In this document: positions 60,296 to 63,881 of the stretch, piece after piece
How positions within the stretch are numbered: the first letter of the stretch is position 1
How the letters are laid out: every line of letters starts with the position of its first letter
Origin: a virus
IMG/VR virus record: IMGVR_UViG_3300026292_000006
Location: 1 to 64,000 of that record
Length of the DNA: 64,000 nucleotides
Direction: 5' to 3' (one strand)
Notes under the pieces: model-generated
Database searches by the model: none
The model's input: only the letters and a program-made list of their open reading frames with translations
What the model was told of the DNA's origin: nothing
Translations under genes and position numbers: made by a program

Positions 60296-60488
60296 GCAAC
60301 TTTGTTGCCTTCTCACTATATTTGTTGTGAAATCTTACATACTCTTGTAATTCTTGTTGAAATTCAGTATAAATTTGCTCTGGTGATGCATCCGAGGTCA
60401 TATAATCTGCAATTAAATCTTTAATTGTATTTCTACGATTGAATGCGATTGTATCACCTTCATTTAGTTTATATTTGTGAAATTGCAT
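60249..60488 (-). CDS. Hypothetical protein, 79 aa
   Basis: A 79-residue protein (MQFHKYKLNEGDTIAFNRRN, TIKDLIADYMTSDASPEQIY) with two helices and a basic end. It begins with a TAATG overlap with the 212-residue oxygenase-like gene, so it is coupled to it. No family recognised. Confidence 0.7.
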   Translation of the reverse strand: MQFHKYKLNEGDTIAFNRRNTIKDLIADYMTSDASPEQIYTEFQQELQEYVRFHNKYSEKATKLHAYFSGGKIPKGNRL

Positions 60489-61126
60489 TAGTTACTAGGT
60501 GTAATGTTTGCTGTTAATGTAATTCTCTCATTCTTAGGGTTAGTATCATAACCATGAGTCAAATTAGCAGGAAATATAATAATATCACCTTCATTAATTT
60601 CAAATGTTGCTTCAGTCATATTATATGGTGTTAACTCTGTGCTATCAATTTGAATGATAGGATAATGTGCTGAAGCAATATTACGTCTCCATTTAATATA
60701 ACTATGGTCTTCCTTATTGTAGTTAATAAAATAACACAAACTAAACAAACAGTTACTAACTTCATGTGGTGCATAAATTGCACCTTCAGATGCTAACTCA
60801 AGGTAACTATCATTAATTGAGAAATTAGACTTATACTTCATACTATTATTATTATGCTTATCAACTGCATCTATAATAGTTCTGTGTAACTCAGGGATTG
60901 CATTTACACATTCATTATTATTACCTACTTGCACAACATTATGACAAATAGATTCTCTACCATGTTTTTCAAGTATCTTACTTTCATTCATCCATAATAG
61001 AATTTGCTCTTTCAATTCTTTATGATTAGGACATGTATATTTCGTTACTGGTGTAGGAAATAGTCCATAAGTTTCATGTTGAATCTTATCAAGTAGTGTA
61101 TCAGATAGTGGGTGATTGTTATTCAT
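60488..61126 (-). CDS. 2-oxoglutarate/Fe(II) oxygenase-like protein, 212 aa
   Basis: The C-terminal end FEINEGDIIIFPANLTHGYD followed by NERITLTANI matches the second half of the double-stranded beta helix of 2OG-Fe(II) oxygenases found in cyanophages (the 2OG-FeII_Oxy_5 type): His191 as an iron ligand and Arg201 as the 2OG-binding residue. The N-terminal FPTPVTKY...LKEQILLWMN also fits. The first iron motif is unclear: the best candidate is His121-Glu-Val123, which lacks the usual Asp. If that is right the enzyme may be inactive or use another residue. It overlaps the next oxygenase gene by 4 bases. The substrate is unknown. Confidence 0.7.
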   Translation of the reverse strand: MNNNHPLSDTLLDKIQHETYGLFPTPVTKYTCPNHKELKEQILLWMNESKILEKHGRESICHNVVQVGNNNECVNAIPELHRTIIDAVDKHNNNSMKYKSNFSINDSYLELASEGAIYAPHEVSNCLFSLCYFINYNKEDHSYIKWRRNIASAHYPIIQIDSTELTPYNMTEATFEINEGDIIIFPANLTHGYDTNPKNERITLTANITPSN

Positions 61127-61731
61127 GTCAGTGGTGTAATAAATGGTGAGTATAACTCTTGAATTGGTTTTAATGGATAAACTGCACCTAAACTAACTCT
61201 ATATCCTTCGGTTGGTGCTTCACCTCTATGATATTCTGCACTATTAAATATTACCATCCTTCCTTCCTTAAATGATATTCTTTCAACATCATTGCCCTCT
61301 TCATTAACAATAACTGTATCCCCACTATTTCCATGTGCCATGTATATAATTGTGAGATAATCTTTACTATCAGCATCGCAATGGTTACATCCATTTTGTC
61401 CTGGTAATTGTCCATTAAGTAATATTCTGTGGCAATGATTTATGTTTAATTCTTTACATATATCATTGTAAATACATCTATTAAAATAATCAACAAACCA
61501 ATAGTATGGTAAATCTTGGAACTTGTCATCCAAGTATAACATAGTACCAAAGAATCGTGCTTTATCAAAATCAGCATAAGGTGAGTTAGTATACTTTACA
61601 GGCATACTCTCAGTGTCCTTAGATACTATGTCAACTAACCAAGGTGGAAAGTAATCATCAATAACTTTAACTAATTCGTTAGTCACTTGCTCTCCATTGT
61701 TTATAGGAATTACGTTGTGCATCTTGTGCAT
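61123..61731 (-). CDS. 2-oxoglutarate/Fe(II) oxygenase, prolyl-hydroxylase-like, 202 aa
   Basis: A complete set of ligands is visible: HCD (His117, Asp119), the distal His168 in AEYHRG and Arg178 in GYRVSLGAVY, the 2OG-binding residue. The fold pattern LLNGQLPGQNGCNHCDADSK then LTIIYMAHG is that of the P4H-like oxygenases common in T4-like cyanophages, which hydroxylate protein or other substrates. The start is uncertain: ATG 61731 or 61722 overlaps the upstream gene by 44-53 bases; a GTG at 61686 has GGAG close before it and overlaps by only 8. It forms a pair with the 212-residue protein. Substrate unknown; modification of host or virion protein is a guess. Confidence 0.85.
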   Translation of the reverse strand: MHKMHNVIPINNGEQVTNELVKVIDDYFPPWLVDIVSKDTESMPVKYTNSPYADFDKARFFGTMLYLDDKFQDLPYYWFVDYFNRCIYNDICKELNINHCHRILLNGQLPGQNGCNHCDADSKDYLTIIYMAHGNSGDTVIVNEEGNDVERISFKEGRMVIFNSAEYHRGEAPTEGYRVSLGAVYPLKPIQELYSPFITPLT

Positions 61732-61888: not shown

Positions 61889-62204
61889 GATTAAATTTCT
61901 CTGTGATAAACGTCTTATCATATTTGGGGGCACCAACGAGCAATGAATGGGCATCTTTGAGCACTTTTAAGCGTGACTCGTGATGTGTTTCCAAATCATT
62001 TAGTGCTGTCTTCACTGCATCAACAAACTCACCTGCTGTGAGAGTTTGTGACTCAACATACTCTTCCAATACATCTTTAACTGCTGCTACACAACAATTA
62101 ATATCTGCTCTGTGGTCTGCTAGTGACTTGCTAGTCTCTTCATTTAGTGGTGAAGTTTGGTATGATGCTGCACTATCTTGTAGTGTCTCACTGCTGTAGG
62201 TCAT
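61869..62204 (-). CDS. Helical protein, 111 aa
   Basis: A 111-residue protein (MTYSSETLQDSAASYQTSPL, NEETSKSLADHRADINCCVA) that is helical from about residue 25 to 85, with CC in the first helix and a basic-free acidic surface. It starts with an ATGA overlap with the 67-residue gene. No family recognised. Confidence 0.65.
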   Translation of the reverse strand: MTYSSETLQDSAASYQTSPLNEETSKSLADHRADINCCVAAVKDVLEEYVESQTLTAGEFVDAVKTALNDLETHHESRLKVLKDAHSLLVGAPKYDKTFITEKFNHGTGSY

Positions 62205-62404
62205 AGTTCTTTATACTCCCAATTTGGGTCATCTTTTACATTAATCCAAAACCAAAAGTCTGGATTGTCTGGTGCTGATAGAAATATCTTATCAGACCTC
62301 TTGTGCTCTAAGGTAACAATATTTCTACTGTTTAAGTAGGTTGAAAACGTTAGTTTACTCTGCTTAGATATAGGTGTAACCCATACCTTACGTCTTAATG
62401 TCAT
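62201..62404 (-). CDS. Basic small protein, 67 aa
   Basis: A 67-residue protein (MTLRRKVWVTPISKQSKLTF, STYLNSRNIVTLEHKRSDKI) ending with the Trp-rich DFWFWINVKDDPNWEYKEL. Predicted as a small beta sheet. It overlaps the methyltransferase gene by 17 bases and the 111-residue gene by an ATGA junction, so it belongs to the methyltransferase unit. No family recognised. Confidence 0.65.
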   Translation of the reverse strand: MTLRRKVWVTPISKQSKLTFSTYLNSRNIVTLEHKRSDKIFLSAPDNPDFWFWINVKDDPNWEYKEL

Positions 62405-63239
62405 TTAATCTAGTAAGTAGATTGTCTTGAAGTGGTGCAACTCTATCTTTACACATATCATAATATGTATCATCAATTTCAAATCCAATGAAGTGTCTGT
62501 TTTCTTCTATTGATATTTGTGCTGTTGTGCCACTACCCATGAATGGATCCAATACTACATCACCTTCATTTGTCCATGTTTGAATGTGACCTCTTGCCAA
62601 TTCTTCTGGCATCGTAGCAGGATGTTTATAGGCATTCTTATTTGATTGTCCAAATCCTCCACTGTTGTTAATTCTCCAGATATTATTACGAGCACCAAAC
62701 TCTCGTATGGGATTCGTCTTCTTATCTCTTACAACTAACTTACCATCTTTACCACGTCCTCTTGCATTACCCCATGATGTAACACCTGCCCACTTATTTG
62801 GTTTATCACAAATAATATTAGTAGTCTTTGGTTTACCCTTAGATAATATAAAACAATATTCAAATGCTTGACTATATCTAACAGACTTAGGACCACTAGC
62901 AAATGCTATACCAGTCTTCTCATATATCATTGTATCATGTAATCTCAAACCACATACATCTTTAAAATGTAATGCTTGTCTGAATGATGTGCCTGACTCA
63001 CTACCATTTATAGTAGCATCATTAACATTCCACATAATAACACCACCAGGTTTTAGGACTCTCTCCAGTTGTGCTGCAACTGAATAGAATATATCCATTG
63101 ACCATTTACTGCTATCATTATATGTCCTAAGGTCATCATATGGTGGTGATGTCACAACCAAATCGACCGACTCCTCATCCATTTGTTGCATACCTGCAAC
63201 ACAATTTACATGATATGTTTTATCTAACTCTAATCCCAT
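62388..63239 (-). CDS. Beta-class DNA methyltransferase (m4C or m6A), 283 aa
   Basis: A DNA methyltransferase that transfers methyl from AdoMet to an exocyclic amine. Catalytic motif IV TSPPYDDLRTY is at residues 30-40, near the N-terminus, and AdoMet motif I DPFMGSGTT at 231-239, near the C-terminus; this order is the beta class. SPPY points to N4-cytosine, although N6-adenine cannot be excluded. Between them are VLKPGGVIMWNVND and the probable target recognition region. I start at ATG 63239, though ATG 63245 is possible; the in-frame TTG at 63260 lies upstream of the expected transcription start. It has a perfect consensus promoter overlapping the end of the neighbouring nuclease-like gene. 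Role: self-protection of phage DNA or part of a restriction-modification-like pair. Confidence 0.88.
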   Translation of the reverse strand: MGLELDKTYHVNCVAGMQQMDEESVDLVVTSPPYDDLRTYNDSSKWSMDIFYSVAAQLERVLKPGGVIMWNVNDATINGSESGTSFRQALHFKDVCGLRLHDTMIYEKTGIAFASGPKSVRYSQAFEYCFILSKGKPKTTNIICDKPNKWAGVTSWGNARGRGKDGKLVVRDKKTNPIREFGARNNIWRINNSGGFGQSNKNAYKHPATMPEELARGHIQTWTNEGDVVLDPFMGSGTTAQISIEENRHFIGFEIDDTYYDMCKDRVAPLQDNLLTRLNDIKT

Positions 63240-63262
63240 GTACATTAAAAGAGGATACAAGT

Positions 63263-63291
63263 ATTATAAACTCATATCCTCCTATTGTCAA
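63263..63291 (-). promoter_or_regulatory. Perfect sigma-70 consensus promoter for the methyltransferase
   Basis: Minus-strand TTGACA (63286-63291), a 17-base spacer and TATAAT (63263-63268). The start is expected near 63256, 11-17 bases before the ATG. It overlaps the last codons of the nuclease-like gene. Confidence 0.9.
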
Positions 63292-63881
63292 GCACTTATG
63301 TATGTGCGTGTTGGTAATGGTAGGAAGTGTAACTTCTTCTGTGCAGGTTTTACAATACCATACTGAGATAGAATGCAATCCTCCTCACCTATCATTAACT
63401 CAAGTGTGCTGAATGAGTCCTTACGTCCCTTAGAAGACTTCCAAACATTTGATTCAGTCAAATCTGTGTCAATAACAACCATGCCGAAAGAATCGATTTG
63501 ATTGTCCTTAAAGGTGTATTTGATTGACCATACAATATTGGTCTTTGCACCACCGAAGTGTGATGTCTTGTTACCTGTTGCAAATGATGCCTTAGACTCA
63601 CCACCCATGAGTTTAAACTCTACTGGTGTGTCTCTGATAACATAATCATAACCTGATACTTCCTCACGTCTTCCATCAATTTCAAGTTTCTCAATACCTG
63701 ACTCAATTACTTCATTAACAATGTATTGAAATAACTTTGTGAAGTCTGCTGTATTCATCTGCTCTTTAATATCTTGAAGAGTCTTACCATAAATACGAAA
63801 CTCATCCTTGATATAACGATTTACTTCTTTAATAGTAAATTCTGTGAGTCTATCTAGGTCTTGTGTTAATACTGTTGTCAT
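63288..63881 (-). CDS. PD-(D/E)xK nuclease-like protein beside the methyltransferase, 197 aa
   Basis: A 197-residue protein, the usual size of a type II restriction enzyme. The segment EVSGYDYVIRDTPVEFKLMG fits the PD-(D/E)xK core: Asp79, then Glu88-Phe-Lys90 on the next strand. A helical N-terminus (about 1-60) and further strands (TNIVWSIKYTFKD, DSFGMVVIDTDL) follow. It is encoded directly upstream of the methyltransferase with the same orientation, and the methyltransferase has its own promoter, the arrangement expected when protection must not lag behind cleavage. I do not recognise the exact family; it may instead be a general phage nuclease or an inactive relative. An upstream TATTAT box (63909-63914) with weak -35 TTGTGT may be its promoter. 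Confidence 0.6.
   Translation of the reverse strand: MTTVLTQDLDRLTEFTIKEVNRYIKDEFRIYGKTLQDIKEQMNTADFTKLFQYIVNEVIESGIEKLEIDGRREEVSGYDYVIRDTPVEFKLMGGESKASFATGNKTSHFGGAKTNIVWSIKYTFKDNQIDSFGMVVIDTDLTESNVWKSSKGRKDSFSTLELMIGEEDCILSQYGIVKPAQKKLHFLPLPTRTYISA

Follow-up and report, generated by a model that had tools for sequence, protein, structure and literature searches.

A candidate type II restriction-modification gene pair in T4-like cyanophages

The window analysed here, comprising 64,000 of the 79,967 bases of a virus record, carries a nuclease-like gene directly upstream of a DNA methyltransferase (MTase) gene. The closest isolate to the record is the Prochlorococcus T4-like phage P-TIM40 (20-kb query: 42% covered, 75% identity). 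We consider it probable, at roughly 78%, that the two genes are the halves of a type II restriction-modification (R-M) cassette that T4-like cyanophages carry. Type II R-M is the simplest reading because the nuclease has a predicted fold like that of restriction endonucleases (REases), the linkage of the genes is of the cognate style, and a fast-evolving nuclease stands beside a conserved MTase. Computational support for this reading comes from the gene pair itself, the catalytic triad, the fold, conservation, co-occurrence and selection.

Organisation of the locus

Both open reading frames (ORFs) of the original prediction lie side by side on the minus strand where it had placed them, and we list them with their promoter and a small neighbouring ORF:

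63288..63881, minus strand: putative restriction endonuclease of the PD-(D/E)xK type, 197 residues, with D79, E88 and K90 and FATGN at residues 100-104
63263..63291, minus strand: TTGACA-N17-TATAAT, a sigma-70-type promoter serving the MTase alone, 12/12 consensus, starting at the nuclease stop codon
62388..63239, minus strand: beta-class DNA amino-methyltransferase, 283 residues from ATG (PF01555, phrog_67)
62201..62404, minus strand: 67-residue ORF (phrog_1653), overlapping the 3' end of the MTase gene

The nuclease ORF lies 48 nt upstream of the MTase when the latter is read from its ATG. An alternative MTase frame (62388-63260) begins at a TTG; we prefer the ATG at 63239 because TTG 63260 would precede the point where transcription is expected to begin (63263 is the last base of the -10 box) and because the alignment with the P-TIM40 homologue begins at that ATG. 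The 67-residue ORF adjoins the pair in many relatives, not in all, and is not a required part; we rejected it as a controller protein since it has no Pfam match and is not always adjacent. A second beta-class MTase gene (64095-65033, minus strand, in G000) resides just beyond the end of the window, 213 nt upstream of the nuclease. The same gene immediately precedes the nuclease in L006-L011 and L095/L096, and in L003 and L074 it stands at a distance of 2-4 kb. With an MTase on either side, the nuclease might recognise an asymmetric target, or the second MTase gene might be independent of it. Elsewhere in the window, the overlapping ORFs 60488-61126 and 61123-61731 (both minus strand) have sub-threshold Pfam matches to 2OG-Fe(II) oxygenases, and in PHROGs one of them falls under phrog_274 ('DNA endonuclease V'), the other under phrog_81 (2OG-Fe(II) oxygenase).

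The MTase matches Pfam N6_N4_Mtase (PF01555) with an E-value of 2e-41 (142.8 bits, cut-off 26.7) and phrog_67 with 4e-62. Its motif IV (TSPPY, residues 30-34) precedes motif I (DPFMGSGTT, residues 231-239), the circularly permuted order of beta-class enzymes, so that motif order and Pfam score both bear out the predicted class. The protein is 72% identical to the 'DNA methyl transferase' of P-TIM40, and its best PDB relatives are the N4-cytosine MTases 8s9m/8s9n. Together with the TSPPY motif, these relatives suggest N4-cytosine as the modified base; the S-MbCM25 homologue is labelled N6A in GenBank. The best PADLOC match is the 'orphan methyltransferase' model, which favours an alternative explanation, namely that the MTase is an orphan shield against host restriction and the nuclease a long-standing neighbour that does something else (resolving Holliday junctions, repair or degrading host DNA without specificity).

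The perfect promoter claimed for the MTase alone is present at 63291-63263 with 12/12 matches, a score that never came up when the 150-nt promoter region was shuffled 2000 times by mononucleotide. As predicted, the nuclease has only a weak one: its best upstream match is 8/12, which is ordinary (p 0.7). The MTase promoter recurs at the same position after the nuclease stop codon in L006 and L007 (12/12) and in L012 and L024 (11/12), and judging from its sequence it would allow independent expression of the MTase in these four and in the window. Most other lineages lack this private promoter, and their MTase and nuclease genes overlap, which implies co-transcription of the MTase with the nuclease. 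The proposed early methylation therefore finds backing in the four relatives and none in most lineages, and as a regulatory argument it applies to one sub-clade. The window holds one other perfect TTGACA-N17-TATAAT, at 2873-2901 on the plus strand, overlapped by a near-perfect copy from 2864.

The nuclease and its predicted fold

Among the families searched, the 197-residue protein matches phrog_11812 (unknown function) alone, and we found no credible sequence match in Pfam, NCBIfam, PADLOC or the PDB. GalU gave weak matches only, which we put down to chance. Members of the PD-(D/E)xK superfamily share very low sequence similarity. The absence of a profile match speaks against membership in a named REase family, not against a PD-(D/E)xK fold. 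We aligned 35 diverse homologues with 22-80% identity, in which 19 positions are invariant, including D79, E88, K90 and FATGN at 100-104, giving the pattern G77-D79...E88-x-K90...F100-N104. The proposed PD-(D/E)xK core thus persists in relatives down to 22% identity. The intact triad in every diverse homologue also argues against an inactive or degenerate nuclease.

AlphaFold2 modelling on the 35-member alignment reached a pLDDT of 89.4. In the model, D79 is located just before the strand 80-82, and E88 and K90 lie within the strand 85-93, so that the motif occupies neighbouring strands of the core as it does in the PD-(D/E)xK superfamily. In a Foldseek search of the PDB with this model, EcoRV filled nearly all of the first 30 places (probability 0.97-0.98, E 1e-3 to 4e-3), and NaeI, 3ndh (a restriction endonuclease that we take to be ThaI), BglI, Eco15I and PvuII came further down, with Hjc resolvases low in the list. 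The structure models cover nuclease types I and II; the subfamily II nuclease, 26% identical to the window subfamily, was modelled separately (pLDDT 85) and matched NaeI (probability 0.96-0.99), NhoI, 3ndh, DpnI, PvuII and EcoRV, with flavoproteins scattered among the matches at probabilities of at most 0.25. A nuclease fold had been set beforehand as a point on which the original prediction could fail, and two separately folded subfamilies both led to type II REases, with EcoRV, NaeI, BglI and PvuII among them. The TM-scores are about 0.4 and the E-values about 1e-3, and nearly all credible matches are type II REases; it is this agreement, not any single score, that leads us to place the nuclease in the type II REase fold as a distant relative.

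The fold matches bear on two alternatives as well. The low-ranking Hjc resolvases are what a resolvase beside an orphan MTase might give, but the top matches are type II REases, not resolvases. DpnI, NhoI and Eco15I act on methylated DNA, and their presence among the matches is consistent with a modification-dependent nuclease (type IIM/IV-like) that would cut methylated DNA, e.g., DNA methylated by the host or, during packaging, phage concatemers. However, these three rank below EcoRV and NaeI, the 197-residue protein has no extra reader domain, and with an active-looking MTase as its neighbour such an enzyme would attack the phage's own DNA if the two had the same specificity. We regard modification dependence as very improbable.

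Linkage, exchange and divergence of the two genes

Among 50,697 phage records, nuclease type I/II and the MTase (at least 60% identity) were each found in 17, and these are the identical 17 records, representing about six lineages only and hence not 17 independent events. They include P-TIM40, syn9, Syn10, S-H35, S-RIM4, MS29 and S-MbCM6/25, and the nuclease stands immediately upstream of the MTase in every lineage that we opened (one representative each). In IMG/VR, nuclease homologues occur in 78 viral contigs, in 50 of which the MTase is adjacent (one with a 588-nt gap). The two genes had been expected to co-occur in other phages, and both collections agree with this. The 28 non-adjacent contigs come from clades in which the MTase, on contigs of sufficient length, lies 6-7 kb upstream, as four of them show; in the other 24 type I/II contigs, mostly short fragments, no MTase was found. 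Separate, closely linked genes for a REase-like protein and an MTase are the arrangement expected of a type II R-M system.

A scan of 84,980 bacterial and archaeal genomes, which requires an exact short motif and is not exhaustive, yielded four contigs. One of them, of phage size (L120, NZ_RMVE01000006.1; 188,235 bases) and filed as Nonlabens xiamenensis, carries a nuclease and an MTase 98-100% identical to those of P-TIM40, and with its P-TIM40-like genes it looks like a phage genome within a bacterial assembly. The remaining contigs are two in which the genes of the pair are arranged as in the phages, and one 3-kb fragment. This exact-motif scan of the 84,980 genomes revealed no cellular origin, and the plasmid collection gave no match.

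Starting from the MTase, we found 568 relatives and examined the best 80 for the upstream gene. Among these 80, it is usually nuclease type I or II, or one of three more D...ExK families, designated here types III, IV and V. Type III is homologous to types I/II, and types IV and V are homologous to each other (hhalign probability 98% in both cases). A GD...E(I/L)K core is common to types IV/V and I-III, as is a T-H-(S/A/T) motif, but the profile comparison between the two groups is not significant (probability 4-5%), and we therefore claim no common ancestry for them. Separate nuclease-based scans, in which some of the remaining loci are truncated, placed the MTase next to the nuclease in 15/16 type III, 13/21 type IV and 13/32 type V loci. 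The more distant MTases adjoin other genes, e.g., for a UvsW-like helicase or a ParB-like protein (names read from sequence), and are probably orphans. In the complete genome of Synechococcus phage DSL-LC02, a ParB-like gene comes after a type V nuclease and no PF01555 MTase was found; this phage may shield its DNA by other means.

Several of these observations would suit an orphan shield: MTases of the same family beside UvsW-like or ParB-like genes, the occasional 6-7 kb separation, and the type V nuclease of DSL-LC02 without an MTase. Against it stand the strict co-occurrence in isolate records, the recurrence of the MTase beside nucleases of several families, and the four cases on sufficiently long contigs, in which even the unlinked genes share a genome. 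We consider the orphan shield unlikely, and prefer a cognate pair.

The two partners diverge at different rates. Mean identity across 39 loci is 78% for the MTase and 47% for the nuclease, and between subfamilies I and II it is about 70% and about 26%, respectively; the nuclease evolves faster than the MTase. Their distances correlate (Mantel r 0.81, 0/5000 permutations), to which shared phage ancestry contributes. Judged by dN/dS ratios of 0.07-0.28 for the nuclease and mostly <0.2 for the MTase, both genes are under purifying selection. The nuclease ratios are a second point against a degenerate enzyme, an explanation to which we give hardly any weight.

Proposed function and relation to known systems

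Under the R-M reading, the 197-residue PD-(D/E)xK endonuclease, probably a homodimer with an EcoRV/PvuII-like fold, would cut a specific unmethylated site, and the adjacent beta-class MTase would protect newly synthesised phage DNA by methylating that very site. Cleavage, sequence specificity, a shared target, dimerisation and the biological target are the parts that we infer. The likely use would be breaking unmethylated DNA in the infected cell, so that either the host chromosome or a co-infecting phage may be degraded.

T4 distinguishes self from host by hydroxymethylcytosine (HMC). The cassette would replace the HMC-DNA/endonuclease II-IV discrimination of T4, which the carrier phages appear to lack. 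No gene of the thymidylate-synthase Pfam family, which also covers dCMP hydroxymethylase, was found in six complete pair-carrying cyanophages, two large contigs and the window's own contig, and this makes a methylation-based substitute for HMC plausible as far as gene content can tell. More tentatively, it is conceivable that T4-like cyanophages use site-specific methylation and a cognate REase as a self/non-self signal for host-chromosome degradation and nucleotide recycling, with the MTase as a fixed core and its nuclease partner exchanged between at least two lineages (I-III and IV-V) that cannot be shown to be related in sequence.

The window MTase corresponds to the cyanophage MTase T4-GC_65 (phrog_67), which is annotated alone; its neighbour, T4-GC_899 or syn9 gp61, is annotated as a hypothetical protein. 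Marine cyanophage MTases are generally annotated in this way, and the usual reading would be an orphan shield against host restriction, with the putative cutter next to a known MTase left unrecognised in many related phages. If the neighbour is the cognate nuclease, these abundant phages are equipped for attack, and with isolates such as P-TIM40, syn9 and S-MbCM25 one could test directly how host DNA is broken down, nucleotides are recycled and superinfection is excluded in Prochlorococcus and Synechococcus. The nucleases would also be candidate restriction enzymes without a Pfam match. We found no description of them as REases in the open-access literature; some may already be in REBASE as predicted REases.

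Among type II REases, the EcoRV/PvuII/NaeI branch resembles the window nuclease in predicted fold, D...(D/E)xK motif, length of about 200 residues and MTase neighbour, whereas the latter has no significant sequence similarity to solved or Pfam families and is carried by lytic phages. Chloroviruses such as PBCV-1 likewise have adjacent virus-encoded REase and MTase genes, and their REases are credited with rapid host DNA degradation (PMC7019647). However, PBCV-1 is a eukaryotic algal virus that packages the REase in its virion. The GATC R-M system of marseilleviruses (melbournevirus mel_015/mel_016) is also a virus-encoded REase-MTase pair, but of giant viruses of amoebae; these leave the DNA of the host undegraded, and co-infecting viruses have been suggested as the target (PMC7253447). 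In jumbo phages, Mom domains are fused to REase-fold nucleases, and it was proposed that the modification shields phage DNA and leaves host or superinfecting DNA open to the nuclease (PMC7824862). Unlike these fusions, in which Mom adds an acyl-derived group, the cyanophage methyltransferase and nuclease are encoded by separate genes.
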